From: Paracyclopina nana
Taxonomy: Eukaryota > Arthropoda > Copepoda > Cyclopoida > Cyclopettidae
Reading direction: 5' to 3'
Length of the DNA stretch: 64,000 bases
NCBI GenBank assembly: GCA_019096065.1
Contig: JAGUCH010000007.1
Span: 5,044,501-5,108,500 of the forward strand
Each line of letters opens with the position of its first letter. Positions within the stretch are counted from its first letter, which is position 1. A program made the translations under genes and the position numbers. Of this stretch, positions 3,901 through 43,976 are shown in pieces. Under the pieces are notes generated by a model. The model searched no databases, was not told where the DNA came from, and was given only the letters and a program-made list of their open reading frames with translations.

Positions 3901-6900
3901 ATGCCCGGTGTTGTAATATTTTGAAGTGGTTTGGCCAGCTGAAACAAATAAATTGACATATGAGTATTTAGGCAAAACGAAATAAGAATGCAGAATATTG
4001 ATGAAAATAAGTTATTCACCTTCGTTGTAATTTTTGTAGTCATATGCACCGTCATTATAGGCACGGTAGTCGTTACCCTTATCATTGGTGCCTAAAAATC
4101 ATTAACAAATTCAAGTTCTGTATATAACAGAGTTACTTAAAAAAGGATCTTTTTCAATACGTACCCGTATTTTGTACTTGACGCTTTGACATGTTGTAGT
4201 TATATCAGATATGCGACTGAGTAGGAATCATTGCTTAACTCAGATACTTATATACCTACGAGCTCGCCCGATTGTCTAAGTGATACCAGAGAAGAACTTC
4301 ACTGACGTTAAACTGAAGTTTGAAAAACCGCCCAATCTCAAAATCCAAAAAAAAAAAAAAAAAAAAAATAGCAAATATTTATTTCAAATTACTAAATGTT
4401 TAATTCTGTCTAGCAAGTCTGCAATGAATAATTTTTGTGATTTGTTACTGTTTCTTTAAGTAGGAGAATTTTTGCCACAGTTACCATCACAAATAAAATA
4501 AGCTAAAAAAATGAGTCAATTGCGTCTATGATTAAAAAGTCACCAATTTGTAGCAGAGCCGCCACATCTGGTAGCATTGGCCCTTACATTGTTTCTCGCA
4601 AGCTGTCATATGTAGTGATGGAACGAGCCGGAAAAATTAGGATTGAGCGAGTGTCGAGATAAAGAATCAGCTCGTTTGAGTTTGAAATTTTAAAAATCCT
4701 AGTTTCTTCGAGTTTCAAGCATTGCTGCATAATCTGCTTTGTTAATTTGAATTTTCATTTAATTCTGAAATTAATGCATTAAAAAAACTTTTCTTCAAGG
4801 AAATAACAGCTAAGAACAATTCAGCAGTCGGTGTGCATAAATATTTATTTGAATATTTAGCAGTTTCACTGTGAACTTTGGCCAAATCCTTTCAAGTTTA
4901 AGCTCATCTGACTTTCGAGTTCGCAAAATTGCATCCGAGTTTTCTGAGTTCTCTCGAAATATTTTTCGAATGAGTTCAAGTTGAAAATGCTTATCTAATC
5001 CGAGTCAAGTTAGCCTTTTGAGTTACCAAGTCGAGTTCAAACTCGTTCCATCACTAGTCGTAGGTTTGTACGTACCGACGTAGATTTTAGCTGCTCAATA
5101 GGTTTTATTACCAAACCAAAATTATCCTGTTATCTGCACAAGATTTCTGAATCTTTGCGTACTTATGCAATTTTTGTTATTTTCATCTGCATTGGTGAGA
5201 GCAATAATGGAAAACTGCTAGTTTGGCAAAGAACAGCCAAGTCCGGCAGCATATAACTAACCATTGTTTCTTGCAAGCTGTCATGAGTACTTAATACTCC
5301 GTGACGTATATTTTTTGAAGTATTATTAGAATTCAATTAACTTTTATCATTGATGTTGAAAAGCCTGAATGCCTTTATATTGGAATAATTGGACGCTTGA
5401 TGAAAGGTCATTCATATTGTTTGTACTTTCTTAAGGTCACACAAACTTTGCTCTTGGTTATTTGACGGTAAGATTTCGTCGGATCAGCCAATAGCAAGAG
5501 AGGGTCATTGCGCCATGATGATTACAATTGATGGCAATGCAAACCTACCCAAATTTCTTTGTTTCCTAAATTTATTTTGTTGAATTAAGTCTAGGTAAAA
5601 ACGTTGATTTGAAATGCAATAAGCCTACAATCAATAACAATACTGCACTGTTGATCAAAAAGCCGATTTGCCGCGCACTAGAAATTCCGCCAAAATATAT
5701 ATTTCCAATTTTAGCACTAATTTTCAGCTTTTAATTTGTATGACTTCTAGGCTTCCAAAAGAGCCCAAATTAATGTAAATAGACAGATAAAAGATTCAAA
5801 TTCGGCTCAGAAACACTCATTTTTGCTGTAAAGTTGGCTTGGGTGATTTTGATAGAACAGCAATTTTGCACAAATTATGCAAAATTTGAGGCTTCCATAG
5901 CTTTTGATTCCAAATGACTCCAATTGAGTGACAAAGTCAGAGAAGTCAATTTATAGCATAAAATGATTATGCACCATAATTGGCTGCAGCCACCTGCTCT
6001 CCCGGATGCTAGGATGCAATATTTTTAGTTTACGACCAATAAGAAAGGGATGCTACGTACGTTGATTTCGCGACTTTTTTTCATGCACGTGAAATCGTCA
6101 AATAAACCCACTGTGTACTGTAATGGAGTCGATGAGGCATCTTTAGAAGTTGAAATGCCAAAACTTTTCTGAAAAATAAGTCTTTATATCATGCTCAATA
6201 GATATGGAGCCAAGGTTCTCACAAACCATCAAAACATTATTAGCTTATTAGATAATCAAAATCAAAATTTTCCTATTATCCACTTGATATTTCTCAGCTT
6301 TAGAGTACTTATGGAATTTTTGCCATTAAAAACTGCATTGGTGTTAGCAATCACCGAAAAATTCTAGTTTGGAACAGAACAGCCTCATCCGGCAGCATTC
6401 ACTAAAGATTTGTTTCTTGCAAGCTGTCATAAGTTCGTACCTCGTGACGTAGATTTTTAATAAGTTATTTTGCATCTAAACAAATACATCATCATTATTG
6501 AAAATCTAAAATAATCCTTTAATGAATGATTAAATATATCACTCTTGATGAATGGTCATGAATATTATATGTATTTTCTTAAGGTCACACAAACTTTGGT
6601 CTTGGTTAGTTGACGGTAAGATTTCGTCGGATCAGCCAATAGCAAGTGAGGGTCATTGTGCCACGTAGTTAGCTGCACAAACAGCGCCATAATTCGGCGA
6701 ACGTTAAGATGTTTGTTATAGACAGTAGCTTTATTTTAATAGCTATCATAACCGAATTATTTATGATAAAACTTTTCTTTCTTTGGCAACACGGAAAAAC
6801 TGTTATTTCAAAATTGTCAAAACAAAATATAAACTCTAAATAAAGTAATGAACTAAGTTCATATCTACACAATTCGTATTCTATTAAAAAACTTAAACAG

Positions 6901-9326
6901 TTAATAATTATTTATTTTTTTGTCATGACCTGTGAAAAAGTGGGAAAATGTCTTTAAAAATGAAACCCATTCAATGTTTAGCTAAAATTGTTAAGAGTTT
7001 GAGGAATGGACCATAGCTCAGTGAGTTTATTTGACGATTTCACGCACATGGAAAAAAAGTCGCAAAATCAACGTACGTAGCATCCCTTTCTTATTGGTTG
7101 TAAGCTAAAAATATTGCATCCTAGCACCTGGGAGAGGAGGTGGCCGCATCCAATTCTGGTGCATAATCATTTTATGCTATTAGTTTGACTTCCCTGACTT
7201 TGTCACTCAATTGGAGTCGTATGGAATCAAAAGTTATGGAAGCCTCAATTTTTTGCTCTATTTGTGCAAAATTGCTGTTCTATCGAAATCACCCAAGCCA
7301 ACTTTACAGCAAAAATGAGTGTTTCTGAGCCGAATTTGAATCTTTTATCTGTCTATTTACACTAATTTGGGCTCTTTTGGTAGCCTAGAAGACATACAAA
7401 TTAAAAGCTGAAAATTAGTGCTAAAATTGGAAATCTGTGTTTTGGCGGAATTTTTGGTGCGCGTCAAATCGGCTTTTTGATCGATCCACAGTGCATAGAT
7501 GATATGACACTTTTCTCAAAGAATGTTTTCTGGTAAATTCTATTTAACTCTCAACGAAGCGAAATTAGAAAAATATCCAAGTAAAAAGGTTGCGTGAAAA
7601 AGGAAAAATTCCTTCCATTTATTCAGTTGATGTATTTTCATATATTAAGCTTATTATGGCTCCCTTCAAAATTGGATAAATGTTTAAATGTATACTATGA
7701 TGCATATTTTTCTAGTTGCCCTGTTTTGACGTGGAAGGTGTGACTTCCAGGCAAAAAGACGAGAAAGCCATGGTGAAACGATGCTACTGGAAGGGCATTT
7801 TAATCAATTGTGCATCGATATTCAAGACTTTTCCCACAGATCGTGGAATGTGTTGCACTTTCAACATGGCCCAAGCTGACCAACTTTTCTTGGATAGCCA
7901 ATACAGCCAAATGGTGGAGAGAATGCAAGTGGAAGACTCTGAGAAAGCCTTTGGCTTTGAAGACCTCCCTGATTGGTATTCAAATGCTAATGAGCCCAAA
8001 TCCACTGTGGGCAAAAATAAGGGATTAACTCTCATCTTGGATGGGCACACCAATTTGATCGCACCTGGAACTGTCAGTGATGACACTCAAGGATTTTTTG
8101 CTGTCGTTGATGAGCCTGGAAAATACCCTCTTGTCAATGAAGGCAGCCAGCTCTTACAAGCCGGACATTCCACTTTTGTAGCGATTTCAGCAACTAAGTA
8201 TTAATCAAAGGAGTCATCACTTCTTAAACATCCTCTATTATTTACAATTTCAGCATTGTTGCCTCAGATGATATTAGGAGCATCAAGCCAGAGAAGAGAA
8301 ATTGCTACTTTTATGACGAAATCAAGCTGAACATCCATAAAAATTACACCAGGTCCAATTGTGTATTTGAGTGCAAGCTTAATTATGCTTTCACCACCAC
8401 TGAAGAGGTAGGCATAATTTGCAAGAAAGCAGCTCATGTTTCTTTTGTTAAGCAGGTTTGCATTCCCTGGTATTTTCCTGTGGATCCCAAAATTACAACT
8501 CAGCCTTGTGATCCTTGGCAAACCAAGGACTTTTTGGAAGCCATGTCTGCAATTCCTGATGATGAGTGCAGTCACTGTTTGCCAGACTGTATTTCAACTA
8601 TTTATGCCACAAGTGTGACAACTGCAAGATTCCGACAATGTGATGAGAAAAATATGGGCTTGTCCCCACTTTGCTCCTTTCAGACTGACAAATTCTCCAA
8701 CCCTCCAATTTGGGGGCAACAAGTCAAGGAGGATTATGTCAACACTTTTGGAATCATGCCATCCTATGTGGCAAAATTGTTACCAGAGTCTAACAAAAGA
8801 AGGCATAACCAATCATAAAAATTTTTTTAGGTTAAAAAAATTAAAACTGAGATTTTTAAAGGTATGCCAGTGACAAAAATGTCATTTTTACCTCTCAAAA
8901 CCAGAAGAATGCTTATTATGATGCTTATGAAGAGGATATTGCAATTGCCCATTTCTTCTTCAGTTCTCCTACAGCTTTTCAATTTAGCATGGGAGTAAGA
9001 CTTAATTATAAATTAAACAAGTGACATTATCACAAGGCAATTTTTCCTTAAAGGCAAGGATGTCACTTTTGGACTTCATTTCTCAAGTTGGTGGCGTTCT
9101 TGGTCTCTTTGTGGGATTCAGTGTCATTACAGCAATAGAAATAGTCTATTGGTTAACTATAAGATTTGCAAGAATCAAAGCCAGCCCGGAAGAAGAAGTG
9201 GAGGAGGAAAAGGAACAAGATACCAGCTTTTTTAAACCAGCTTTTTATGACCCTCCCAAATCTGCAGGAAGTCATACCTCAAAAATTGCACCCATATCTA
9301 TTGATGAAACAATTCTGCATCAATAA
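903..9326 (+). CDS. DEG/ENaC (pickpocket-like) sodium channel subunit
   Basis: Subunit of a trimeric plasma-membrane cation channel of the amiloride-sensitive DEG/ENaC family. Twelve exons join with matching phases: 903-998, 1095-1256, 1638-1841, 1992-2226, 2284-2407, 2467-2638, 2689-2832, 7716-8197, 8254-8407, 8456-8787, 8862-8994, 9054-9326 (about 836 residues). Seen: TM1 at about 57-85; FPAVVIC just after it; LWYSQ|LPCF across exons 7/8, followed by a C-W-G-NC block; a cysteine-rich ectodomain with RNCYFYDE and CIPW; and before the end GGVLGLFVGFS, the TM2 and G-x-S filter. The tail is about 50 acidic residues. Exons 4-6 (linker) and the weak GA|GTCTAAC donor at 8788 are the least certain. 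Intron 7 (2833-7715) hosts two minus-strand genes and several repeats. AATAAA lies at 9383. The start at 903 was chosen as the Met nearest the conserved N-terminus. Confidence 0.88.
2961..3407 (-). CDS. Small aromatic/Gly/Asn-rich protein, nested gene 1
   Basis: Two exons on the minus strand, 3299-3407 and 2961-3103, joined by a GT-AG intron (phase 1), give about 83 residues. The protein starts MPGKGKREVV and carries EYRAYDNGGY, YYNTGKGHAFYENK and RFHENQNQGYRNYQ, then a basic GNKK end. There is no signal peptide or membrane segment. The YxxYxxGxYxYKNY and YYNTGxGHAFY pattern recurs in the neighbour at 3808-4192, so the two are tandem paralogues. Short arthropod proteins of this composition exist, but I know of no function. 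The gene lies wholly inside intron 7 of the DEG/ENaC gene on the opposite strand. Confidence 0.8.
3808..4192 (-). CDS. Small aromatic/Gly/Asn-rich protein, nested gene 2
   Basis: Three minus-strand exons, 4165-4192, 4020-4091 and 3808-3938, join in frame to about 76 residues starting MSKRQVQNTG. The body reads DYRAYNDGAYDYKNYNE, then YYNTGHGHAFYESHG and FHENQNQGYRDYQ, closely matching the paralogue at 2961-3407. The intron after KNYN[D/E] is in the same place in both genes. This copy has an extra first intron. A TATATAAG box on the minus strand at about 4246-4254 lies about 55-60 bp upstream of the ATG, consistent with an independent promoter inside the host intron. Function unknown. Confidence 0.8.
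4613..5056. mobile_element. Inverted-repeat element with TAGTGATGGAACGAG ends
   Basis: TAGTGATGGAACGAG begins the element and its reverse complement closes it, 444 bp in total with no coding capacity. It splits a copy of the direct repeat also present at about 5140-5515 and 6236-6663: the copy's AGCTGTCAT end lies just left and its GACGTAGATTTT continuation just right. No clear target duplication was found. Confidence 0.65.
5140..5515. repeat. Interspersed repeat, copy 2 (others at 6236-6663 and split around 4613-5056)
   Basis: This stretch and 6236-6663 share, in order, the GTTTGG..AACAGCC, TTTCTTGCAAGCTGTCAT, GTGACGTA and GACGGTAAGATTTCGTC blocks with small gaps, about 1.1 kb apart in direct orientation. 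A third, partial copy (about 4540-4612 and 5057-5100) is interrupted by the inverted-repeat element. No reading frame is visible. Confidence 0.65.
5642..7493. mobile_element. Foldback element with about 485-bp inverted arms
   Basis: The left arm (about 5642-6128) and right arm (about 7008-7493) are inverted copies over their whole length with scattered mismatches; the outer ends are TGCACTGT and ACAGTGCA. The central 0.9 kb contains copy 3 of the neighbouring direct repeat (6236-6663). No transposase is visible, so it is non-autonomous. It sits in intron 7 of the DEG/ENaC gene and could fold the pre-mRNA there. Confidence 0.75.
6236..6663. repeat. Interspersed repeat, copy 3
   Basis: Direct copy of 5140-5515, lying in the loop of the foldback element. 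The most conserved block is GACGGTAAGATTTCGTCGG. Confidence 0.6.
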
Positions 9327-17335: not shown

Positions 17336-20300
17336 CTAATAAAAACCAAGAGAAGCCTTGGAATTCACTGCATTATTAAACCAGTCAAAATAAGAAGATT
17401 CTGCTTTGCTCACCAGCTGAGGGAATTGTATCTTAAAAATTGAGTTTACCACTTGCGGATCCATCTTCTTTGCCTTGGACATTGTTTTTGCCGCCACAAT
17501 GATGTCATCCAGGGTCAATTTGGTGCCCAACGTGGTTGTAGCCATCATATGGCGAACCATTTCGACGGGCACACAACTCCAGAAATGCTTGTTGCTGGAA
17601 AAAGCTCTCAACACTGCTGCACTAACACGATTCACAAATGAGGAGTTCATGGCTGCATTCATGTACACAGCACATGGCAAGCTGCTGACAAAGTCTTGAT
17701 TCGCGAGAAAGACTGATCCAAAATCCAGCCCATTGGGACCAAGTTTTGCGGGCCGCGACTGCATAGCCAGGTGACATATGCAAGCAAAACTTAGAAATAA
17801 ACTTTGTGAACATCATGTACATTGCAAACATCATGTACATTGTGAACATTGTGTAAATCGTGTACAGCGTGTACATTGTGTACAGCGTGTACATCATGTA
17901 CAGCGTGTACATTGTGTACAGTGTGTGCAACGTGTACAGCGTGTACATTGTGATCATTATGTACACGCTGTACATTGTGATCATCGTGTACATTGTGATC
18001 ATTATGTACAGCGTGTACAGCGTGTACAGCGTGTACAGCGTGTACAGCGTGTACAGCGTGTACAGCGTGTACAGCGTGTACAGCGTGTACAGCGTGTACA
18101 GCGTGTACAGCGTGTACAGCGTGTACAGCGTGTACAGCGTGTACAGCGTGTACAGCGTGTACAGCGTGTACAGCGTGTACAGCGTGTACAGCGTGTACAG
18201 CGTGTACAGCGTGTACAGCGTGTACAGCGTGTACAGCGTGTACAGCGTGTACAGCGTGTACAGCGTGTACAGCGTGTACAGCGTGTACAGCGTGTACAGG
18301 GGTCTCAAGGACTTTAGTATTCTTGCAGCGACACTGGGCACAATGTTTACTTGAGATTATCTGCTCAGAATCTGATGGAGAACAATCGTACCAAGTTTCA
18401 GCTCAATCCGAGCACTTTGGAAAATCGGCAACATTTTCTAAGGCCCCCCTTGGGAAAACTCGACTTTTTCCCAAGTCATTTTATGCACTTGACTATGAAG
18501 TACCAACTTGAAGAGGAGTTCAGACGATCCTTTGCTGTGATATTGGGGGTCAAAGTATGAAAAACGGGCCCCAGAAGGAGCGGTCTCTCAGAAAATTTTA
18601 TGAAATAAGAAATTATGGGGACATCAAGGGCTACTTACATATTAAATTTCAGCTCTCTAGCTCAACATTAAGAGTAGCTGAGTCAGTAGTTTACAATGCT
18701 GAGACTCAGTCAAAATGATATCTGATTTATTTGCAGCAACTTTTGATTCAACAACTTTGCTGTATCTTGTCATTTTGTGTTGTTGAGTCAGTTGATTACT
18801 TTGATGAGACTTGGTCAAAATGATGTTTGATTTATTTGCAACAACTTTTGCTTCAATGACTGATGTATCTGCTCATTTTGGATTGCTGAGTCACTTAGCT
18901 GAGATGCTGAGATTTTGTTTACAAGGGTATTTAGGGGTGCTGAGCAACTTTTACAAAATAAGTTTTTGGATATCTCTCACCATCCAATTTCCATTTCTGA
19001 TCCAAGAAAGAACAGCATATTTTGTTCTAGAAAATGAATAGCTTTTTTGAGGCCCATTTGGAGGCAATTAATTTTAGGCAAGATCAACTACAATTGCTTG
19101 AATGCTTTCAGCAAGATCAAAAATCATACTGAAATACAAATTTTTTAGGTGTGCAGCTTAGAACAGGCTGTTTGTCAGGCAGTGGCCAGATAACCAGCGC
19201 ACAGAAATCCCGAAATCACACAATGCACACACCAGCCTCATTAGCCATAGAAACGTACAGAAATCCCAAAATCACACAATGCACATCAACCTCACCCACC
19301 TCACAATCCTCACTCGCCTCATCAACCTCACTCACCTCACTCGCCTCATCAACCTCAGTCACCTCACCCACCTCATAAACCTCACTCACCTCACCCACCT
19401 CATCAACCTCACTCACCTCACTCGCCTCATCAACCTCACTCACCTCACTCGCCTCATCAACCTCACTCACCTCACCCACCTCATCAACCTCACTCACCTC
19501 ACCCACCTCATCAACCTCACTCACCTCACTCGCCTCATCAACCTCACTTACCTCACTCGCCTCATCAACCTCACTCACCTCACCCACCTCATCAACCTCA
19601 CTCACCTCACTTGCCTCATCAACCTCACTCACCTCATTCGCCTCATCAACCTCACTCACCTCACTCGCCTCATCAACCTCACTCACCTCACCCACCTCAT
19701 CAACCTCACTCACCTCACTTGCCTCATCAACCTCACCCACCTCACTCACCTCACTCGCCTCATCAACCTCACTCACCTCACCCACCTCATCAACCTCACT
19801 CACCTCACCCACCTCATCAACCTCACCCGCCTCATCAACCTCACTCACCTCACTCACCTCACCCACCTCATCAACCTCACTCACCTCACTCGCCTCATCA
19901 ACCTCACTCACCTCACCCACCTCATCAACCTCACTCACCTCACCCACCTCATCAACCTCACTCACCTCACTTGCCTCATCAACCTCACTCACCTCACCCA
20001 CCTCATCAACCTCACTCACCTCACCCACCTCATCAACCTCACTCACCTCACTCGCCTCATCAACCTCACTCACCTCACCCACCTCATCAACCTCACTCAC
20101 CTCACTCGTCTCATCAACCTCACTCACCTCACTCGCCTCATCAACCTCACTCACCTCACCCACCTCATCAACCTCACTCACCTCACCCACCTCATCAACC
20201 TCACTCACCTCACCCACCTCATCAACCTCACTCACCTCACCCACCTCATCAACCTCACTCACCTCACCCACCTCATCAACCTCACCCGCCTCATCAACCT

Positions 20301-23300
20301 CACTCACCTCACTCACCTCACCCACCTCATCAACCTCACTCACCTCACTCGCCTCATCAACCTCACTCACCTCACCCACCTCATCAACCTCACTCACCTC
20401 ACCCACCTCATCAACCTCACTCACCTCACTCGCCTCATCAACCTCACTCACCTCACCCACCTCATCAACCTCACTCACCTCACCCACCTCATCAACCTCA
20501 CTCACCTCACCCACCTCATCAACCTCACTCACCTCACTCGCCTCATCAACCTCACCCACCTCACCCACCTCATCAACCTCACTCACCTCACCCACCTCAT
20601 CAACCTCACTCACCTCACTCACCTCATCAACCTCACTCACCTCACCCACCTCATCAACCTCACTCACCTCACTCACCTCATCAACCTCACTCACCTCACT
20701 CGCCTCATCAACCTCACTCACCTCACCCACCTCATCAACCTCACTCACCTCACCCACCTCATCAACCTTACTCACCTCACTCGGCTCATCAACCTCTCTC
20801 ACCTCACTCGCCTCATCAACCTCACTCACCTCACTCACCTCACTCGCCTCGTAGTACATCACCCAGTACTTAAAGCTCGGTAATGATGCCAAAATTAGAA
20901 AAATGCTTTGAATTTTGATCTTCTTACAGTTTTGGAATCTAGAGACTCAACAGAACAATAAATCAACTTCTGCATAGCAAAGTTGATATATCAGCTTCTG
21001 AGCAAGCGGCCATATGAATTGCATAGTAAATAATAATGCCGTTTCGATCGTCTATTCAATGCCAAAATTCCAAAATTGCAAATGGTCCAATTTTTTATCT
21101 TTTTATAGTTTTGGAATCTAGAGACCAAAATGAACACTTTGTGGTATTCAGCAAACTCAGCATCTCAGTATCTTGCCTCCGTAAATCTCGCAGACAAGAT
21201 GCTGTTAAGCCATAAACTGGCGCGCGGCATCTCAGCACGCTTCAATTTACTGTTTAGAAGTCACGAAAAATTTAGTCACGAGCAACTCGATTTTGTCCCG
21301 AAATGCAATTTTGCTCTTGCAATTATTCACGTTACGCGAGTTTCCCTCCTAGATCGAAAAGTTGCAAAAAAAATGCTAGTTTCAGTTCTTATTCTGCACT
21401 AGGAAACAAGTCTTGTCAAAACTAGATGAAAAAAGGCTAAAGTTTGGCCTTTGTCCCGAAATGCAATTTTGCTCTTGCAATTATTCACGTTACGCGAGTT
21501 TCGCTCCTAGCTCGAAAAGTTGCAAAAAAAAATGCTAGTTTCAGTTCTTATTCTGCACTAGGAAACAAGTCTTGTCAAAACTAGATGAAAAAAGGCCAAA
21601 GTTTGGCCTTTGTCCCGAAATGCAATTTTGCTCTTGCAATTATTCACGTTACGCGAGTTTCGCTCCTAGTTTTAAAAAATGTCCAAAAATATGCTAGTTT
21701 CAGTTCTTATTCTGCACTAGGAAACAAGTCTTGTCAAAACTAGATGAAAAAGGAAAAAGTTTGGCCTTTGTCCCGAAATGCAATTTTGCTCTTACAATTA
21801 TTCACATTACTCGAGTTTCGCTCCTAGCTCGAAAAGTTGCAAAAAAAAAAATGTTATTTTCAGTTCTTATTCTGCACAAAGAAAAAAGTTTTGTCAAAAC
21901 TAGATGAAAAAGGCCAAAGTTTGGCCTTTGTCCCGAAATGCAATTTTGCTCTTGCAATTATTCACGTTACGCGAGTTTCGCTCCTAGCTCAAAAAGTTGC
22001 GAAAAAATATGCTAGTTTCAGTTCTTTTTCTGCACTAGGAAACAAGTCTTGTCTAAACTAGATGAAAAAGGCCAAAGTTTGGCCTTTGTCCCGAAATGCA
22101 ATTTTGCTCTTGAAATTATTCACGTTACACGAGTTTCGCTCCTAGTTTTAAAATATGTACAAAAAAAATGCTAGTTTCAGTTTTTATTCTGCATTAGGAA
22201 ACAAGTCTTGTCAAAACTAGATGAAAAAGGCCAAAGTTTGGCCTTTGTCCCGAAATGCAATTTTGCTCTTGCAATTATTCACGTTACGCGAGTTTCGCTC
22301 CTAGTTTTAAAAATGTCCAAAAATATGCTAGTTTCAGTTCTTATTCTGCACTAGGAAACAAGTCTTGTCAAAACTAGATGAAAAAGGAAAAAGTTTGGCC
22401 TTTGTCCCGAAATGCAATTTTGCTCTTACAATTATTCACATTACTCGAGTTTCGCTCCTAGCTCGAAAAGTTGCAAAAAAAAAAATGTTAGTTTCAGTTC
22501 TTATTCTGCACTAGGAACCAAGTATTGTCAAAATTAGATGAAAATAGGCCAAAGGTTAGCCTTTGTCCCGAAATGAAATGTTGATCATGCAATAATTAAC
22601 GTTAGGCGCGTTTCGCACCTAGCTCAAAAAGTTTTGACAAAAATATGCTAGTTTCTGTTCTTTTTCTGCACTAGGAAACAAGTCTTGTCTAAACTAGATG
22701 AAAAAAGGCAAAAGTTTGGCCTTTGTCCGGAAATGCAATTTTGCTCTTGCAATTATTCACGTTACACGAGTTTCGCTCCTAGTTTTAAAATATGTCCAAA
22801 AAATATGCTAGTTTCAGTTCTTATTCTGCACTAGGAAACAAGTCTTGTCAAAACTAGATGAAAAAGGCCAAAGTTTGGCCTTTGTCCCGAAATGCAATTT
22901 TGCTCTTGCAATTATTCACGTTACGCGAGTTTCGCTCCTAGTTTTAAAAAATGTCCAAAAAATATGCTAGTTTCAGTTCTTATTGATGAGGCGAGTGAGG
23001 TGAGTGAGGTTGATGAGGCAAGTGAGGTGAGTGAGGTTGATGAGGCGAGTGAGGTGAGTGAGGTTGATGAGGTGGGTGAGGTGAGTGAGGTTGATGAGGC
23101 GAGTGAGGTGAGTGAGGTTGATGAGGCGAGTGAGGTGAGTGAGGTTGATGAGGTGGGTGAGGTGAGTGAGGTTGATGAGGCGAGTGAGGTGAGTGAGGTT
23201 GATGAGGCAAGTGAGGTGAGTGAGGTTGATGAGGTGGGTGAGGTGAGTGAGGTTGATGAGGTGGGTGAGGTGAGTGAGGTTGATGAGGCGAGTTAGGTGA

Positions 23301-26300
23301 GTGAGGTTGATTAGGTGGGTGAGGTGATTGAGGTTGATGAGGTGGGTGAGGTGAGTGAGGTTGATGAGGCGAGTGAGGTGAGTGAGGTTGATGAGGCGAG
23401 TGAGGTGAGTGAGGTTGATGAGGCGAGTGAGGTGAGTGAGGTTGATGAGGTGGGTGAGGTGAGTGAGGTTGATGAGGTGAGTGAGGTTGATGAGGCGAGT
23501 GAGGTGAGTGAGGTTGATGAGGCGAGTGAGGTGAGTGAGGTTGATGAGGCGATTGAGGTGAGTGAGGTTGATGAGGTGGGTGAGGTGAGTGAGGTTGATG
23601 AGGTGGGTGAGGTGAGTGAGGTTGATGAGGCGAGTGAGGTGAGTGAGGTTGATGAGGTGGGTGAGGTGGGTGAGGTGAGTGAGGTTGATGAGGCGAGTGA
23701 GGTGGGTGAGGTGAGTGAGGTTGATGAGGCGAGTGAGGTGAGTGAGGTTGATGAGGAAAGTGAGGTGAGTGAGGTTGATGAGGTGAGTGGGTGAGGTTGA
23801 TGTGCATTGTGTGATTTTGGGATTTCTGTGCGTTTCTATGGTGAATGAGGCTGGTGTGTGCATTGTGTGATTTCGGGATTTCTGTGCGCTGGTTATCTGG
23901 CCACTGCCGTTTGTCACCATTTACTTAAACATACTTTTTTGCTGCTTTTTTCCAAGTTTTGGCTTGGTCTCAAAAATCAGACATTTATGATCAGCTGAAC
24001 TGAGTTCATATGTCTCTGCTGAGTGAATTTGGATGAGTTGGACCATAAACTAAGTGTTGAAGCAAAAAAAGTTGAAAAATGCTAATTTTTGATATTGGCC
24101 AAAACGGACAAAATGAAGCCTCCCTGGCCTAGTGTGCATTGTGCACAACGCGATCACTGTGGACAACGGGATAATGGTGCACAACGCCATCATTGTGCAC
24201 AATGAGACCAATGTGAAAAATGGGGTTAGGTTAGGTTTACACGCTGTACACGCTGTACACGCTGTACACGCTGTACACGCTGTACACGCTGTACACGCTG
24301 TACACGCTGTACACGCTGTACACGCTGTACACGCTGTACACGCTGTACACGCTGTACACGCTGTACACGCTGTACACGCTGTACACGCTGTACACGCTGT
24401 ACACGCTGTACACGCTGTACACGCTGTACACGCTGTACACGCTGTACACGCTGTACACGCTGTACACGCTGTACACGCTGTACACGCTGTACACGCTGTA
24501 CACGCTGTACACGCTGTACACGCTGTACACGCTGTACACGCTGTACACGCTGTACACGCTGTACACGCTGTACACGCTGTACACGCTGTACACGCTGTAC
24601 ACGCTGTACACGCTGTACACGCTGTACACGCTGTACACGCTGTACACGCTGTACACGCTGTACACGCTGTACACGCTGTACACGCTGTACACGCTGTACA
24701 CGCTGTACACGCTGTACACGCTGTACACGCTGTACACGCTGTACACGCTGTACACGCTGTACACGCTGTACACGCTGTACACGCTGTACACGCTGTACAC
24801 GCTGTACACGCTGTACACGCTGTACACGCTGTACACGCTGTACACGCTGTACACGCTGTACACGCTGTACACGCTGTACACGCTGTACACGCTGTACACG
24901 CTGTACACGCTGTACACGCTGTACACGCTGTACACGCTGTACACGCTGTACACGCTGTACACGCTGTACACGCTGTACACGCTGTACACGCTGTACACGC
25001 TGTACACGCTGTACAAAATGTACACGCTGTACACGCTGTACACGCTGTACACGCTGTACACGCTGTACACGCTGTACACGCTGTACACGCTGTACACGCT
25101 GTACACGCTGTACACGCTGTACACGCTGTACACGCTGTACACGCTGTACACGCTGTACACGCTGTACACGCTGTACACGCTGTACACGCTGTACAAAATG
25201 TACACGCTGTACAAAATGTACACGCTGTACACGCTGTACAAAATGTACACGCTGTACATGCTGAACACGCTGTACACGCTGATCACAATGTACACGCTGT
25301 ACACGCTGATCACAATGCACACACTGTACATGCTGATCACAATGTACACGCTGTACATAATGATCACAATGTACACGCTGTACACGCTGCACACACTGTA
25401 CACGAAGCACACAATGTACACGCTGTACACGCTGTACACGCTGTACACGTACACGCTGTACACGCTGTACACGTACACGCTGTACACGCTGTACACCCTT
25501 GTACACCCTGATCACAATGTACACCCTGATCACAATGTACACCCTGATCACAATGTACACACTGTACACACTGAACACAATGCACACGCTGTACACAATG
25601 CACACGCTGTACACAATGTACATACTTAACTCTTTTATTATTGAGAAATTGTTATTGTTTATTTCTAAGTTTTGCTTGCATATGTCACCTGGCTATGCAG
25701 TCGCGGCCGTTTTGCGGGTAAGCCAGGGTGGGTGCTCAGAGCCACTCCAATGGATTCTCGATCTAGTATTTGCCTCACATTTTTCGATTCCACCACATCA
25801 GCAATATACCTTGAAAGATGACAATTTTTATGGGAAACAGAAAAATCCAGAGCATTTCAAAATTTCTTACTCAACTGGAAGCATTTTGAGAAACTCTTTC
25901 GTTTTGAGCATTTTCTTCACTAGCTTCTTTGCAGGAAAATCCTCAGTGATATTTTTTACAAATTGAGGCCGCGCCTGGATCAAGCTTGCAATTGTGGCAT
26001 ATGGAATGGTTGACTCGAGCCTTTCGGCCAAAGTCCTATCCATCATCAGTGTATGAATGGTAGACGATCTGAGCCTCGAGATCAGTTCTTTCCAACGGAG
26101 TACATGATCTAATTGACAGTCACTCAATCCTGAGATCAACTCCGGATTCTTGTCAGCGTTGGCAACATTCATGTCGAGATTGAACGGATCAAAAATGTAC
26201 TTGATTTGCGTCCTCTCAAATTCGGACAAGCCTTGAACAACCAAATCATGGGGGTCAACATAGTAGTCATAATCCGGAAGAACCGTCAAAAGCTCATCTT

Positions 26301-26623
26301 TCACATCGAGCGCTTTTTGCTCGACTTTTTCAAGAACTTTGGCGGCCTCGTCTAACTGTTTCCTTTTGGCCCGAAGATCTTTCCTGAACTGAGTACAATT
26401 CAAGACTGGACTTTGCCCGGCATTTTTAACGACGAGCTGGTGAATCCTTTAAAATAAATGAAGCTCTTGACAAACTAAATGACACGTGGGTTGCTCCTTA
26501 CCAAGGTTTGTCGAGAATGAACGTATCCGGATCGGCCTCGTCATAGTCAAAATAGATGAGAGCTTTTGAGGAACTGGTCACAGTAAAGGTAACGGCTAAA
26601 GTTATCCACTGAAGTACTGACAT
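17336..26623 (-). CDS. Secreted orphan protein split by a transposon-intron
   Basis: Four minus-strand exons, 26502-26623, 25871-26446, 25689-25809 and 17336-17758, join with phases 2, 2, 0 to 413 residues. Residues 1-20 form a signal peptide (MSVLQWITLAVTFTVTS). The rest is soluble, mostly helical and slightly acidic (YFDYDEADPDTF, DYDYYVDPHDL, then FANQ/FSSNK-type segments), with no domain I recognise. A frame reading past the exon 2 donor (GA|GTAAGA) stops at 25867, but the 61-bp intron to 25809 restores frame exactly and continues as EYIADVVESK. The 7.9-kb intron 3 is a foldback element whose termini provide both splice sites. The spliced product carries 12 extra residues (RPRLHSQSRPAK, about 267-278) from element ends and target duplication. 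Without the element LPAK would run directly into LGPNG. Convergent with the TRC8-like gene, 60 bp away. Confidence 0.75.
17743..17750. repeat. Target-site duplication GTTTTGCG, left copy
   Basis: GTTTTGCG directly abuts the left inverted terminus and recurs abutting the right one at 25709-25716. Read on the coding strand it is CGCAAAAC, encoding Ala-Lys in both flanking exons. Confidence 0.85.
17803..18299. repeat. 9-bp satellite (GTGTACAGC)n, left arm
   Basis: Degenerate units (GTGTACATT, GTGATCATT) at 17820-18006 lead into about 32 perfect GTGTACAGC copies at about 18007-18299. The unit contains palindromic TGTACA. Because the period is a multiple of three and no frame contains a stop, long false ORFs arise on both strands. 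Confidence 0.95.
18675..18870. repeat. Two-copy tandem repeat of about 107 bp
   Basis: GTCAAAATGATRTYTGATTT recurs at about 18708 and 18815 with flanking TTATTTGCARCAACTTTTG in both, inside the left spacer of the foldback element. It is not seen in the right spacer. Confidence 0.6.
19280..20848. repeat. 27-bp minisatellite, left arm
   Basis: Units CCTCATCAA + CCTCACTCA + CCTCACTCG (or CCTCACCCA) repeat for almost 1.6 kb with local drop-outs of single 9-mers. Stop-free on both strands, which creates false 534- and 558-residue ORFs of INLTHLTHL and DEVGEVSEV type. Confidence 0.95.
21291..22985. repeat. 158-bp tandem array at the centre of the element
   Basis: About eleven head-to-tail copies beginning TTGTCCCGAAATGCAATTTT, with CACGTTACGCGAGTTTCGC inside, period 157-160 bp. 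Two sub-variants alternate after the CTCCTAG block (one with CTCGAAAAGTTGC, one with TTTTAAAA). The last copy is cut off at TCAGTTCTTAT where the inverted 27-bp array begins. Confidence 0.93.
22986..23795. repeat. 27-bp minisatellite, right arm (inverted)
   Basis: Reverse-complement orientation of the 19280-20848 array (GATGAGGCGAGTGAGGTGAGTGAG-type units), about half as long. It is followed at 23800-23911 by a nearly exact inverted copy of 19180-19290. Confidence 0.93.
24238..25620. repeat. 9-bp satellite (ACACGCTGT)n, right arm (inverted)
   Basis: Over 100 near-perfect ACACGCTGT units, then degenerate units with ACAAAATGT, GATCACAATG and ACCCTGATC variants toward 25620. It is the inverse of the left array but nearly three times as long. 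Confidence 0.95.
25709..25716. repeat. Target-site duplication GTTTTGCG, right copy
   Basis: Identical to 17743-17750 and directly abutting the right TIR. On the minus strand it is the last host exon sequence (CGCAAAAC) before the element. Confidence 0.85.
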
Positions 26624-35872: not shown

Positions 35873-36803
35873 TTATTTTAGATTTGATAGTACTTTCTTC
35901 AGAATTTGAGGATTCTCAAGGAAGAAACCAATTGGAGCAATGATTGACAGTTCGGTTAAAGCAAGAATGTAATCTGTCAGAAGATGCTTCACAATATCAT
36001 ACTTTTCTACAAAAGCTAATGATGTCATTATAACAACTAAAATGATCAAATTAATCCCAAAAATGACTGTAATTGCCAATTGACTGTTTTTTGGCGAATT
36101 GTTGAATTTTTGGCCTGCAGATGTGGCCTCGATTTGAGCATTCATTTTTTTCTTCCGGAAAAAGACCAGGGGCTCAAGGGACAGACCCAACAAGAGGCCA
36201 GTAGCTGTAATGGCATGAAAAAAGCTAAAGGAAATGAAGTTAATAGTTATGAGGCCAAAAAAGATGTAATGCAGTGGTACCGAATTTTCGGGTTGCCTCT
36301 ATCAAATGGCAAGCCTGTCATCAGAATGAACAAGTACTCTGGACCAGCTTGGCTGAAATTTGTCAAAAAGGCATAATAAAAAGCGAGGAAGTAGTTTACC
36401 AAGTTGAGGAAAAGGCCAAAAAACAAGTTTTCCAAACGCAAACTGACATAAAATGGATGATTATATACTGGGTCATTTTCATTACTCCTGCAATGCTCAG
36501 CATACTCTTGATAACAAAGAAAAAAGATGCCGAAAGAGAGCTGTATGGTGTGCCAGAGATTAATCGAACAATAATTAAGTTGCTAGGAATAATATTGAAC
36601 AAAATGATAATGTACATTGCTGATGAAAATAATTGGTTCAAAATTGTTCGCTTCATTGGATCTTCACCAAACTTCTCATACCAAATGATGATAGGGCATA
36701 AAGTGTAAGCTACAATTTCTTGGAGCAAAATCAATGCTACCAAGCCAATTTTCAGCAAAGTGTTATCATCAAAAGCTTCTAAGATTTCAGTAGAGTTTGC
36801 CAT
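35873..36803 (-). pseudogene. 7TM receptor family, copy R1, frameshifted
   Basis: Same two-exon plan as its neighbours (exon 1 36281-36803, exon 2 35873-36224), with WYEKFGEDPMKRTILNQL and the C-terminal ALTELSIIAPIGFFLENP. After CVWK, where intact copies read GLPPLDD then LFFG, about 19 nt are missing. The frame shifts, giving a premature stop (CFLAFSSTW), while LFFGLFLN resumes in another frame. Exon 1 length is 523 versus 548 nt in three siblings. Either a young pseudogene or an assembly error; both exons otherwise keep good splice sites. Confidence 0.75.
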
Positions 36804-37004
36804 CTTTTTTTTTTTTTTTTTTTGAGTAATTTCAGGGAGCCAAAGCTGAGAGCTGGACAGCTGGGTTTCAACTGAAGTCAGGAGGTAATTTTTGAAGATC
36901 TCTCTCTAATTACTGCATGTTTAGGCTTTTAATTACATTTTCTTATATAAGTATATATAATGTACGCAGCTTAATCCATTTGGAATATTTTCTTTAGGGC
37001 TTGA

Positions 37005-37969
37005 TTAAGCCTTCAAGTTTTTCATTATTTTTTTGAAAATTTTTGGATTTTCCACAAAAAATGCTATGGGCGCAATAATTGATAGCTCAGTCATTGCTAA
37101 CAAATGATCTGTTAAGAGCTGCTTGACTAGATTGAGTTGATCTACAAATACAACAAAGTAAACCATACTGATGATCATTATTACATTTGAGCACATAATC
37201 AGTGAGATTGCCATATGGTTATTCCTTGGAGAAGTATTGAATGCAGTAATTCCTTGAAATGATGATGATCCAACCTGAATGTTCATTCTTTTCTTACGTA
37301 CTAATGTAATTGGACCCAAGATCAGGCCAAGCAAAACAGACATACCAGCTATTAGATGATAAATCCTAAAATAAGAGTAGAAACATTAATTTATCGTGGT
37401 ACTTTTTGACTTTTTTCATACTTGACACTTGGCATTGATTGATCAGTAATGTGGCTGCTCATCAAAAACACCAAATATTCAGGACCAGGCTTGCCCATAT
37501 TTTGAAGACAGGCCAAAAATATCGATAGGAACAGATTCAATTTGTTCAAATAAAACCCAAAAAACATATCTTCAAATGGTGGGAAGCCTTTCCATTTGCA
37601 AACAGATAGAAAATGTATGATCAAATATTCAGCCATGTTGATGACACCCATTATTGAAATGACACTCTTAAAAACGAAGAAAAAGGGAAGCATAAACTTG
37701 TAGCTTAGGGGGCCTCCTACAAAAACTCTTAGCAAAATCAAGTTATTGGGTACAGCATTGAACAGAATGACAATCATGGCTGCATCAGTCAGAATTTGGT
37801 TTAGAATTGTTCTCTTTAATGGATCCTCCCCGTATTTTTCGTACCAAATTATCATGGGGCAAAACGTGAAAGCTATGAATTGCTGAGTGAAAATTAGCAA
37901 GGTGACTACACTCTTTGCTGCTGGATTGCTTTCAAAAATGTCTTCTTGGCATGTAAAGTTAATCAGCAT
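37005..37969 (-). CDS. 7TM receptor, family member R2
   Basis: Exons 37422-37969 (548 nt) and 37005-37365 give 302 residues. Seven hydrophobic segments are visible, four to five in exon 1 and three in exon 2. Family motifs: CPMIIWYEKYGEDPLKRTIL then NQ after TM1; CKWKGFPPFEDMFFG; GPEYLVFLMS; AMTELSIIAPIAFFVENP in TM7. A glycosylation sequon (NFT) stands near the N-terminus, as expected for an outside N-terminus. The Met at 37969 was chosen because it aligns with siblings; an upstream in-frame Met exists. Likely a G-protein-coupled type chemoreceptor or peptide receptor, but I cannot place it in a named class. Confidence 0.8.
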
Positions 37970-38176
37970 TTTGAAAATACTTAGATTTGGCAAGATCAAC
38001 CTTTCTGCTTGGAGAGCTAATCTCAACTGAAGAGAAAAATTTTGCTTTCCTCGAATTTTATAGATGGGTCACAAGAATTCATAGAAAATAAATTCTGGCA
38101 TATGTTTTTGTCATTTTTTATTTTCATTTGTCATTGATTTGATCATACATTTTGTTTGCAATCATATTTTGATAAA

Positions 38177-39146
38177 TCAAACTGAGTTTTGAAAAGCATT
38201 TTTAACTTTCTTAAAGATGTGTGGATTTTCCAAAAAGAAGCCAATTGGTGCAATAATTGATACCTCAGTCATTGCCAACAAATAGTCAGTGAAAAGTCTT
38301 TTCAGCACTCCCAAATCTTTCACACAATATCCAAAGTAAAGCATAGTGACAAGGATAATTAAATTCAGTCCAAACACAATTGTGACTGTCATGTGGTCAT
38401 TTCTGGAGGCATTATTCAATTGAGTGATTTGACTTTTTGGAGCAATCAGTGTCTTCATTTTTCTTTTCTGTACCACGATGATTGGCTCAACAATCAATCC
38501 TATCAAAATGGCTGTTCCAGCAATAACAGGAAAGATCCTAATTGAATATAAAAAGTCAAGCACTTTTGATAGGCGGAATGGAAATATAGTAACCTTACCT
38601 TACAGATGGCCTATGATGATCGATGTTCTGCCCAGTCATGAAATGCACTAGATATTCTGGACCAATTTCACTTAAATTTTGCAAGCAAGAAAAGAAAGCT
38701 GCCATGGAAAAATTCAGAACATTCAGGAAATGCCCAAAAAATAAATCATCCAAAGGTGGCAAGCCTTTCCACACACAAATTGAAAAAAAGCTGATGATGA
38801 AATATTCCCCCAAAATTAGAAAGCCTGTTAGGGTCAGGCTGGTTTTGACATTGAAAAAGAAAATGTAGGTGAATTGGTAGTTCAGATGTGTTCCCAAAAT
38901 TATGCGAGCTAAGATAAAGCTGCTGAGGATGGCATTGACTAGAATTAAAACTATCATGGAAGATGAAAACAACTGGTTTAAAACTGTCCGTTTCATCGGA
39001 TCTTCGCAATACTTTTCATACCAAATTATCATGGGAGCAGTTGTTAGTGCAACAGCTTGCTGAAGCAAAATCAAAATGACAACGCCCCATCTTACCCAAG
39101 TCTTGTTATCAATTACGTCCTCTTCATAAGTAATGTTGTGATTCAT
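38177..39146 (-). CDS. 7TM receptor, family member R3
   Basis: Exons 38599-39146 (548 nt) and 38177-38537 give 302 residues, the same lengths and intron phase (2) as R2. Starts MNHNIT with a sequon. Motifs: APMIIWYEKYCEDPMKRTVL then NQ; CVWKGLPPLDDLFFGHFLN; GPEYLVHFMTG; AMTEVSIIAPIGFFLENP. Differs from R2 by Cys in place of Gly in the YEKY(G/C)EDP loop. Seven TM helices by hydropathy. Confidence 0.8.
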
Positions 39147-41159
39147 CTTGTATATATATTTTTCCAATTGTGTGTTGAGAACTTCACGGCTGGCTCAACC
39201 AAATTAGTCTGCCTAATTTTAATTGTTTTTTTCAGCTACTAACCCAGATTTGCAAAACACTCAAACTTGGCTCCAAATTTTGCAGCAAAATGAGCTTTTT
39301 CAGGCTGTGAACAGACTCTCAGCAGTATTTTAATGCATGAGCTTTTTGAGCCTCATTATAAAATTTGCAGGCCATTTTCTCCTATATGACACGGGGAGGC
39401 CACATTTGGATCTACTTTCATCATTTTTAAAGAATGGCCTAGGCCTACTGGAAAGAGAGTTCGAGCCAATATATTGGCTATGACTTTTTAGTTATGTTCA
39501 GAAAAAGCAAAAAATATTTTGCTTGGCTTCTATCCAAAGCAGAATCTTTAAGGTGTTGAAGCGAAATAAAATAAAATCAAGTTAAAGAAGCCTGAAAAAA
39601 GACTAACACTGGCTGTTCTACTTTATTCCATCTAGGATAAATTTCTAAAATATTTTCATTTTGAGTCAGAGAACCTTTTCCTGATTGTTCATTTCATACA
39701 GAGCACTTTTCACTCCATTATTTAATTAAAATTGAGCATTGAAATAACGCAAATACTGAGACTTTTGTGATGCTCCGAAATTTTCGTTCGCGCAAATCAA
39801 CATTTAGCCTACGTCAGAGCAAATGATTCGTCGCAATCTGGAAAAAGCGATTCGTTTCGTTGATCCAGGCTCGGTCAAGCCTGAATTAGAACTTATAAGA
39901 AAGAGAATAAAATCTCTCACCAAATCTCATACCAGTTCAACTGTCTAGGATGTACAGGATCACTTTTACAAAAACTCCGTCAATTCTGTTGAACTGAAAC
40001 TTGAAAAATCGGGAAACCGTACTTTGATCTACGTTTTAAGGACTACATGTTGTTTACGTTTTACGATCTACGGCGTCCTTTTTAAGATCTAGCGCGGAGT
40101 GGCTAGAGACCATTTTATACCTGAGTTTTAAGATCTATTGGCGTCTGTTTTAATATCTATTGGCGTCTGTTTTAAGGTCTAAATGACTTTTAGAGCAAAA
40201 TACTAGTTTTAGGATTCGTTTCATTTTAGTATCTACAGCTCGGAAATTATTGGTTTTTGTCTTTGCAACCTTGATATTTCCTGACTCAGTGCTGAATCTC
40301 ATTCTCAATAAGATACTTTTTGTTCACCTCAAGTGATCTGTAATATAAGGTGACATACTAGCTGTCTCTTTGTTCCGTCAAGAATAGCCGTATGAGATGG
40401 GGCTGAGGTAGACCAAAAAACATAGTTTCGTAGATCGTAATACACAGGTATGTAGATCAAAGTACTCAGGTAAAAATGTTACCAAAAAAACAACTTAGAC
40501 CTTAAAACGACGCCAATAGATCGCAAAACAGACGCCAGTAGACATTAACATGTAGATATTAAAACGGACCCCTTTTTAGATCAAAGTACTGGTACCCGAA
40601 AAATCAACAGAGTCAAATCAGTCAATCGAATGTTTTGACTGTAGGATCGAATTTGTAACCCAATCAAAATTTTATCTCTCCTCAGTCGATTGAAAATTGA
40701 ATAGATTTAGCTAACATTTCAGGATAGTCATTGGTTAAATATTGGTATGTCATTTATTTCATAGTTGAGGTAAAGCTAACTTTTTGATAAATTCGTTGAG
40801 TGCAAGAAGTGTTTCGCATTTGCCCCAAAGTTAGTAATACAATTCCGAGAAAAATATAAACATAAAACAAGCAAAGGTTGTCTAGGCTTCAGAGTTCAGC
40901 CGTTAGAATCTATTTTCAAAATCAAAGAAAAGGCAACATCAAGGCTGGCTTTTGACGAATTGAGACGAAACACTTTTTTGAGCCAACATTTGTCGGAAAA
41001 TAAGCAAAGGAGACGAATTTTCAAATGTTTCGCAAGAAGTCTAAAGTGATATTAGGTCAAAATGGTAGGTAAGCATTCTCTATTTAATTATTTCACACAT
41101 GATAATCAGTGTACATTGTTCATAGAATCGATTTCTGGAAATCAATCAAAATTCTCATT
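39147..41159. other. Intergenic gap in the receptor cluster
   Basis: About 2 kb without exons, holding an hAT-like MITE at 40011-40597. The rest is AT-rich with no recognisable gene. Confidence 0.5.
40011..40597. mobile_element. hAT-like MITE with 8-bp target duplication
   Basis: Ends GGGAAACCGTACTTTGATC and inverse of GGGTACCAGTACTTTGATC; directly flanked on both sides by GAAAAATC (40003-40010 and 40598-40605). 587 bp, non-coding; the interior contains inverted GATCTA..GGCGTC blocks. Confidence 0.8.
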
Positions 41160-41640
41160 ACTTCTTTTAATGATTATTTAGACAGTGCCCAATCGGAGCA
41201 ATTAATGTTTTTATTATTTCTATCAAAGCCAAAAGACAGATATGCAATAAATAGTTCCTGAATGATGCAGAATTTCTTCTGTAGCCAACAAAAGAATATA
41301 AAATGTTAAGAAATTCAAGAATTGATGGCTCAGAAAGACTTGATTTGTGGCTGTTGCTGAAACTCCAGCAATGGCTGGAAAACTTCTGAAAATAGAAAAT
41401 TTCCAATTTATTGGCAAGTTTGCTCCTAACAACTGGTTTGCTTACATTATCGGCAATGGCCAAAAGATTGCTAGGTCTACAGGAATAATATATACCAATC
41501 TAGTCCCACATTAATAAAGTTGTGCAGAAAAAATGTAGAATAACAAATCAACAAAAATGGCCCAAATTTTTCATGGATCATGAAATATTTCATTATGAAT
41601 ATTCCTGACAGAGTAGGCATAGTTTTGACACAAAAGACAT
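41160..41640 (-). pseudogene. 7TM receptor relic
   Basis: Scattered minus-strand pieces match the family: FPAIAGVSATA (start of exon 2 in siblings) near 41370, and LALIEIIKTLIAPIGHCLN near 41170-41230, versus LAMTELSIIAPIGFFLEN. At 41575-41640 a decayed part of exon 1 aligns with the ATGAAATATT..GTTTTGAC region of R4. Frames are broken throughout. An old duplicate, probably of R4. Confidence 0.65.
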
Positions 41641-41788
41641 ATGCAATTTAAATTTGAGCCCATGACAAATCTGGGCTTGTATCAATACTTGAAAAGTTAG
41701 GTGTGTAGCACTTCTCTGGGCCAAAGGGCGTAAGGAAATTAATTTTCTTCTGCATATTCTAACTTTAGTGTTATTTTTAGAGCAGCTT

Positions 41789-42757
41789 CTACTCCCACAA
41801 GACCTTAAGAATTCCAAGCACTTTTTTAATGATGATTGGATTTTTTATGCAAAATATTAAGGGTACAAATATGGTGACCTCAGTCATAGCCAAGAGATAT
41901 TCAGTAAATAATTCTTGAATGATTCCTAGCTTCTTTTCCAACACACCAAAGTAAACCAATATACCAAGAATTACAATGTTGAAAAATACCCAAATTGAAG
42001 AAGTAGTGATAACTTGATTTTTTGAGGAAGTGTTGTATGGGTTTTGTTGCTGAGGAGCAATTGTTGAGTTTAGTTTTTGCTTTTGAATTATGGCCATGAG
42101 CTCACAAATTAATCCGATGCTTGATGATATTCCAGCCACAACAGGAAAAATCCTTAGGGAAAAGTTAATGTTAAAAGCTTTGCAAGTATTCTAAATTACA
42201 ATTACCTACTTGATTGGGGGCGTTGAATGGTCAACATAATGCCCAGTCAAAAGATAAACAATGTAATCAGGTCCAATCTTGACAGAGTTATGAAGCAAGC
42301 TAAAGAAGGCCGCCAATGTAAAATTCAGCATATTTAAAAAGAACCCAAAAAATAAATCGTCAATAGGAGGCAGGCCTTTCCAAACGCAAACTGACAGAAA
42401 ATTCATGATGAAATATTCAGCCATGGTAAAAATTCCTTGCAAAGTAAGAGCAGTTTTGACGAAGAAAAAGCAAATGTATGTGAATTGGTAGTTTAGGCAG
42501 GAGCCCAGGAAAATTCTGGCAAGGATAATATTGTTGATTGATATTTGGAACAAAATCAGATTGAGCATGCTAGCAGAAAATAGTTGGTTCAAAACTGTCC
42601 TTTTCATTGGATCTTCACCGTACTTTTCATACCAAATCAGCATGGGAGAAAAAGTGAAAGCTACACACTGCTGCAAAAGAATCAGGCCAACAATGCTCAT
42701 TTTTGCCCAAGGATGGGGCTCAAAAATGTCCCCCTCAATGGTAAAATTCAAAAGCAT
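41789..42757 (-). CDS. 7TM receptor, family member R4
   Basis: Exons 42210-42757 (548 nt) and 41789-42152 give 303 residues. Starts MLLNFT (sequon). Motifs: SPMLIWYEKYGEDPMKRTVL then NQ; CVWKGLPPIDDLFFGFFLN; GPDYIVYLLTG; AMTEVTIFVPLIFCIKNP. TM7 has lost the IIAPIGFF wording of siblings and reads IFVPLIFC. Intron position and phase are identical to the other members. Confidence 0.8.
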
Positions 42758-42988
42758 ATTGATCAATATGCTAATTGAAGACTTTTTCCTTAATGAAGAT
42801 AAAACTACTTGCACCTTGGCCTTAAGAGTTCAAACTGGGATGTATTTTGCTTTGCAAACAGATATTTGGCTACATTTGCCTCATTTGCTGTTGTTGTCCT
42901 AATTCCTTTACTTCCTAATATGAAAACTAAGCAGCATCTTTTATTCAGCGAGTAAGACTAACACAAACACACAACTATATTTGAACAA

Positions 42989-43976
42989 TCACAAGTTTTT
43001 TAAGGTCTGCTGGAGTTTTTTGAAGATTTGATGATTCTCTGCCAGAAAAATGGTTGGTATCAGCACAGACAACTCAGTTGTAATGAGGAAGTAATCCAGC
43101 AGCAACTGTTTGAGCAAATTTAGGTTCTTCAAGCCTTGATTGATGAGGAGAAAGCTTAGAATCACAATCAGGAAAACCAAGTTGGTCCAAAATGCAACAG
43201 AGACCCTCACATTGGCATTTCTGACCGAGTTGTTAAATCTGCTTGGCTGGTTTGTGTTGTTGGGATTAACATGCTGATACACTTTTCTTTTGTAGAAGAT
43301 TGTGATGGGCTCAAGCAAGATGCCTAGTAAAACAGTTGACCCCGCAACAGCATGGTAAATCCTGGAGGCAAAATCAATCCTTTTAAAATTACATAATGAT
43401 GATTAGTTTTGGTCATGTCCACCTTATGGGAGGCCTTGTGTGCTCCACCTGGTGTCCAGTGATGAAGTGCACCATATATTCAGGCCCGATTTCATTGAAA
43501 TTCTGAATGCATGAAAGGTAAGATGCAATGGAGAAGTTGGCCAAGCTCAGAAAATGCCCTGCAAACAAATCATTGATTGGAAGCAGTCTCTTCCATACGC
43601 AAAAGGTGAGAAAGCGAATGATGATGTATTCACTAATTGCCAAGAGTCCAGCCATTGAGAGCATGCTTTTAACCAAGAAGAAGAGCACAAAAGCAAAGTG
43701 GTAATTGAAGGGAGTTTTAGAAAGCAGGCGAATCAGCACAAAACTGTTTGGAATGGCATTAAACAATATAATGATAAAGCAGCCAGTTGAAAACAGCTGG
43801 TTGACGACTGTTCTCTTCAGAGGATCTTCACTATACTTTTCATACCAAATGATCAATGGACAAATAGAGAAGGCGAAAGCTTGGTGTGCCAAAATCATGC
43901 AAACCAACACAGTTTTGATCCATGGGCTTTCAGCAAAGAAGTCTTGATTGCCCCAGTCAGTACTATTAGTTGACAT
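42989..43976 (-). CDS. 7TM receptor, family member R6
   Basis: Exons 43423-43976 (554 nt) and 42989-43361 give 308 residues. Starts MSTNST (sequon). Motifs: CPLIIWYEKYSEDPLKRTVV then NQ; CVWKRLLPINDLFAGHFLS; GPEYMVHFITG; TTELSVLIPTIFLAENHQIF. The most diverged intact copy, at the upstream end of the array. Family, topology and intron phase as for R2-R4. Confidence 0.8.

Follow-up and report, generated by a model that had tools for sequence, protein, structure and literature searches.

The window analysed here, a 64,000-nucleotide stretch of the copepod Paracyclopina nana (contig JAGUCH010000007.1, positions 5,044,501 to 5,108,500), very probably contains a foldback DNA transposon sitting in a coding exon. 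The element spans 17751-25708 (7,958 bp) in exon 3 of a host gene on the minus strand. Judged from its sequence, its main effect on that gene is likely to be disruption. An earlier note on this DNA had read the same element as an 8-kb introner, a transposon-derived intron removed by the spliceosome, an outcome that we consider improbable.

The element is bounded by two terminal inverted repeats (TIRs), which are abutted by the same 8-bp sequence:

17743-17750: target-site duplication copy 1, GTTTTGCG, identical to 25709-25716
17751-17802, plus strand: left TIR, 52/52 complementary to 25657-25708
25657-25708, minus strand: right TIR, 52/52 complementary to 17751-17802
25709-25716: target-site duplication copy 2, GTTTTGCG, identical to 17743-17750

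Both the perfect 52-bp inverted termini and the flanking 8-bp duplication had been described in the earlier note, and both were reproduced. Complementarity between the TIRs extends over 52/52 positions and is lost sharply from base 53, and the duplication (8/8 identical) falls within the 8-10 bp range taken here for foldback elements. A search with the 21-bp TIR end, allowing up to 3 mismatches, returned two sites in the window, both belonging to this element (0.01 expected from shuffles), and no second copy of the TIR. No exact match to the 23-base TIR core was found in viral_contigs or genome_contigs, which cover viruses and prokaryotes. Over the 60 sites of TIR and duplication, 0 differences were counted, which makes a recent insertion probable. 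Without the element, CGCAAAAC would be expected once at the empty site. Duplications of about 8 bp fit several superfamilies, including Mutator, hAT, P, Merlin and KDZ.

The host gene consists of three exons, placed by frame continuity, the third of which is divided by the element:

26502-26623, minus strand: exon 1, with a start resembling a signal peptide by eye
25871-26446, minus strand: exon 2, flanked by introns of 55 and 61 nt
25709-25809, minus strand: exon 3, portion ahead of the element (101 nt)
17336-17750, minus strand: exon 3, portion past the element, through the stop codon

The gene starts at 26623 with a hydrophobic leader, and the product is probably a small secreted protein, the leader having been judged by eye. 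The host frame reads ...HPGLPAK before the element and AKLGPNG... after it. Past the element, the joining frame alone is open, running for 138 codons from the duplication to the stop at 17336, and the two non-joining frames contain 6 and 9 stops. For comparison, open frames of 405 nt were obtained in 364 of 20,000 random picks elsewhere in the window, coding parts included. The coding sequence (CDS) of the empty site, with one copy of the duplication, comprises 1206 nt (401 codons and a stop) and is uninterrupted. Since the flanks join into one open frame, the element entered a coding exon, in agreement with the earlier note. Searches with the host protein gave no match in Pfam at E 0.1 or in PDB at E 1. 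By tblastn, no paralogue of it was found in the window (E 5.0 for the next-best hit), and no relatives were found in viral_contigs.

Internally, the element is built largely of satellite repeats, located with Tandem Repeats Finder (TRF), and of inverted blocks, located with blastn within the window:

17851-18299, plus strand: outer left arm, 9-bp satellite (TGTACAGCG), TRF
18300-19177, plus strand: left-arm stretch without a counterpart found in the right arm, blastn
19178-19299, plus strand: inner inverted block, left, 122 bp, matching the reverse complement of 23787-23908 at 97.5% identity, blastn
19290-20842, plus strand: inner left arm, 27-bp satellite, TRF 57.2 copies, inverted relative to 22983-23789
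21292-22984, plus strand: central 159-bp satellite, TRF 10.7 copies
22983-23795, minus strand: inner right arm, 27-bp satellite, TRF 30.8 copies
23787-23908, minus strand: inner inverted block, right, 97.5% identical, inverted, to 19178-19299
24238-25622, minus strand: outer right arm, 9-bp satellite, TRF 154.4 copies

From both ends inward, the order is thus mirrored: the 9-bp satellite, unmatched stretches of unequal length, the 122-bp block, the 27-bp satellite and the 159-bp centre. The arms differ in content: the left one has 36 exact 9-bp units and the right one 122. The left arm also contains a direct duplication of ~128 bp (18666-18896, 79% identity).

Open reading frames (ORFs) of at least 120 residues in the element are either made of satellite or cross it. 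The Pfam scan of the element covered the left unmatched stretch (18300-19177). No transposase was detected in the 4 scanned ORFs of the 13 (at least 40 residues) listed for that stretch. These gave three weak matches, the best at E 0.0018 (19 bits compared to a cut-off of 27), none of them to a transposase and none over the curated cut-off. With long inverted arms carrying tandem repeats, perfect TIRs and an 8-bp target duplication, the element is by its anatomy a non-autonomous DNA transposon of foldback type, as far as sequence can assign it. The earlier note knew of no introner made of satellite arms; tandem-repeat arms are ordinary for foldback elements.

Two described families offer the closest parallels. 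Tetris of Drosophila virilis, according to passages of its description (PMC4079207), has complete copies with 8-9 bp duplications, composite TIRs with tandem repeats and no conserved ORF. The present element shares the long composite TIRs with internal tandem repeats, the non-coding middle, the lack of a transposase and a duplication of similar size. However, the arm repeats of Tetris are ~220 bp, compared to 9 and 27 bp here, and the two are likened by description, not by sequence. The Tm1 Mutator/foldback family of root-knot nematodes, as presented in parts of PMC3169594, likewise has a variable number of tandem repeats in composite TIRs, unequal ends and duplications of 8-10 bp. It differs in its repeats of 13-15 bp, in duplications that are most commonly 9 bp, and in its asymmetric 7-bp end motifs; the ends of the element described here are, by contrast, perfectly inverted. 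A putative transposase is encoded by one Tm1 group, whereas none was seen here.

The expected consequences for the host gene can be outlined as follows. A cut-and-paste insertion with an 8-bp staggered cut would have placed the element in exon 3 of the three-exon gene, with a transposase supplied from elsewhere acting on the 52-bp termini. Transcripts entering from the host side would then run into a stop codon that lies in frame inside the TIR (bases 42-44 of the element on the transcript strand, after 280 residues), followed by putative poly(A) signals:

25634-25663, minus strand: two AATAAA hexamers (positions 46 and 70 of the element, read on the transcript strand), with the GU-rich 9-bp satellite after them

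The two hexamers lie within 75 nt of the entry point, which, together with the GU-rich satellite, suggests premature polyadenylation. TGT and GTG words in the 70 nt past the first AATAAA are more numerous than at any of the 98 other AATAAA sites in the window. Among the modelled gene ends in the window, AATAAA lies no more than 500 nt from the stop in 5 of 7, and ATTAAA does so in one more; the host gene has neither hexamer within 500 nt of its own stop. Because the TIR stop, the AATAAA words and the GU-rich satellite occur in succession, truncation of the transcript or of the protein within the element is predicted: transcripts may terminate there, or a truncated 280-residue protein may be made. 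In either case we infer a loss of function.

The TIR donor may also pair with other acceptors. To judge whether the proposed splice sites look real, they were scored against the modelled native introns of the window. These were placed by frame continuity and recognisable families and are predicted models, yielding 13 donors and 16 acceptors; two of the 16 acceptors are without a modelled donor, and one possible GC-AG intron supplied its acceptor only. Codon usage had first been used to look for short introns ab initio, but the 7 introns returned were mostly implausible and the approach was dropped. The intron put forward in the earlier note scores as follows:

17759-25688, minus strand: proposed intron (predicted), donor CAG/GTGACA 5.13, acceptor TATGCAG/T -6.52

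It appears unlikely, although somewhat less so than removal of the proposed intron, that the principal outcome is aberrant splicing, with the TIR donor spliced to a different acceptor, such as the exonic host AG at 17417 or one within the element, giving altered proteins. When 40 in-frame open pairs near the element ends were ranked, the best was 25688 to 17417 (13.55), which would remove ~110 host residues; the proposed pair ranks 22. Within the element, 28 of 625 AGs score at least 4 as acceptors, the best lying in the 159-bp satellite. However, acceptors of this quality are not enriched in the element, being rarer there (~3.5 per kb) than outside it (5.2 per kb per strand), and the scoring is based on 13 donors and 16 acceptors. 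Maize Ds and dSpm are DNA transposons found in exons, whose ends can supply splice sites, with splicing that is often imprecise. The present element is similar in being a DNA transposon in an exon with possible splice sites at its ends; it differs in that splicing was observed for the maize elements and is predicted here.

The reading proposed in the earlier note is that the spliceosome removes 25688-17759 (7930 nt), adding 12 residues, and that the family makes introns in any exon it hits. We consider this improbable. The arithmetic behind it is right: splicing would leave 20 + 8 nt of element and 8 nt of duplication, 36 nt in total, and the spliced CDS would comprise 1242 nt with no internal stop. 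A TIR- and duplication-bounded foldback element in an exon, containing a predicted frame-keeping GT-AG pair, stands, while splicing and introner status are not supported. Every one of the 16 modelled native acceptors outscores the proposed one (leave-one-out range 1.69 to 13.74), which is also equalled or exceeded by 5172 of the 6890 AGs outside the element. The proposed acceptor has 3 T residues at positions -4 to -13, compared to 4-7 in the natives. By this measure the 3′ end lacks an acceptor of native quality, although a sequence proxy cannot prove a site unusable. In addition, the native introns of the window are modelled at 55-569 nt, the element has no second copy there, and splicing would have to compete with the two poly(A) signals and with the higher-scoring in-frame acceptor in the host exon at 17417.

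Several observations weigh against disruption as the main effect. Two concern polyadenylation: by a plain maximum-GU measure, 43 of the 98 other AATAAA sites are equal or better, and AATAAA appears in 985 of 20,000 TIR shuffles. The remainder concern splicing. The TIR donor lies inside the leave-one-out range of the native donors (-1.42 to 9.64), with 9 of the 13 natives scoring higher, and is equalled or exceeded by 390 of 5226 GTs outside the element. It fits the U1 consensus at 7 of 9 positions and in this surpasses 7 of the 10 natives in a first set of 10 introns. By the sequence proxy, the 5′ end carries a donor of native quality. The proposed acceptor is preceded by 29 nt without an AG, which is true of 14% of AGs in the window, and a branch-point-like CTAAG word was seen by eye ~33 nt upstream, at the usual branch-point distance. 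The 28 nt of element that would be left in the exon are open in two of three phases. Finally, the frame would survive splicing at the TIRs, and the flanking exon is intact; the insertion looks too young, however, for this intactness to show whether the gene is in use or newly broken.

As RNA, the two TIRs would form a 52-bp duplex (-99.6 kcal/mol) that hides both proposed splice sites, a point in favour of disruption. A local TIR hairpin with the donor in its loop was rejected because it is no more stable than shuffled sequence (z 0.40; of 200 shuffles, 123 folded at least as stably).

How readily such a pair of sites arises was estimated by swapping the TIR for shuffled or random 52-mers while retaining the mirror symmetry and the host exon, with 4000 trials each for dinucleotide shuffles, mononucleotide shuffles and 52-mers from the window, in that order. 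Some in-frame open GT-AG pair was present in 1285, 1434 and 1881 trials (32-47%). The summed score of the real pair was equalled or exceeded in 1013, 1054 and 1148 trials; the splice motifs pointed out in the earlier note are therefore present as letters and keep the frame, yet as a pair they do not exceed what chance would give. A pair whose two sites each matched or beat the real one occurred in 195, 262 and 165 trials (4-7%). This last figure reflects the good donor and is the best argument that the sequence offers for the introner reading. Overall, the frame-keeping pair does not count as evidence of an evolved intron.

Published introners, as described in parts of PMC9860276, belong to families with median lengths of 30-654 nt and are recognised from at least 4 similar introns. 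The element resembles them in its insertion into an exon and, as in part of the introner families, in its TIRs and short duplication. Introners of Aureococcus, in the same account, carry both splice sites and add 4 bp of element and 8 bp of duplication, a precedent for the present element, whose candidate splice sites likewise add a multiple of three bases. In contrast to those families of introns, there is here one 8-kb copy with a weak predicted acceptor. We found no paper treating a foldback element and an introner together in the open-licence library searched, which is not a claim of absence from print.

An extension of the introner reading is more doubtful still, namely that an 8-kb satellite foldback moves through exons as an intron independently of orientation. 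Because the TIRs are perfectly inverted, such an introner would work in either orientation. Each TIR end has a candidate donor at 20 nt and, on the other strand, a candidate acceptor at 8 nt, so that any insertion with an 8-bp duplication would add exactly 36 nt and keep the frame. Surveys that filter out low-complexity introns could have missed a class of this kind.

That the foldback is an assembly artefact of mis-joined reads is very improbable: assembly is difficult for long inverted and tandem repeats, but a mirrored error is argued against by the unequal arms (36 and 122 exact copies of the 9-bp unit), which differ in length, copy number and single-copy parts, and mis-joining would not be expected to yield a perfect TIR with an 8-bp duplication at a site that restores the frame.

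Elsewhere in the window, 40010-40598 may hold a second, small foldback-like element. Its ends, starting with CGGG, match inverted at 19 of the first 22 bases, its inner 22-bp repeats are inverted (40128-40182 and 40495-40548, 87%), and AAAAAT on both flanks is a possible 6-bp duplication. Inverted arms of ~464 bp (5653-6113 and 7019-7482, 92% identical, ~900 bp apart) possibly mark another TIR element, with no matching duplication by eye. A dispersed repeat (45533-46091 and 62579-63142, 92% over 568 bp) has a 25-bp tandem repeat in each copy. On the minus strand, 35873-44072 contains five two-exon genes with a common intron position (introns of 56-61 nt), encoding hydrophobic proteins that resemble seven-transmembrane proteins by eye. 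Three first exons of this cluster were compared with Pfam; two had no match at E 0.1 and one had none over the curated cut-off, and one of the proteins has no relatives in viral_contigs. A patatin-like phospholipase and TPR repeats fall in one gene model by frame continuity (46918-49649; intron 48490-48544), with a possible GC-AG intron at 47252-47528. Window proteins with Pfam and PDB matches include a nuclear-receptor zinc finger, an ASC channel and NDRG, a set indicative of an animal.

The locus illustrates how easily in-frame GT-AG pairs arise by chance within a TIR. As a clean, young-looking exon insertion whose empty-site sequence is known, it offers a good single-locus test of whether the ends of a transposon provide splice sites or poly(A) signals. 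If the element were spliced, the size range of intron gain driven by DNA transposons would grow more than tenfold, and satellite-rich foldback elements would be added to its sources.

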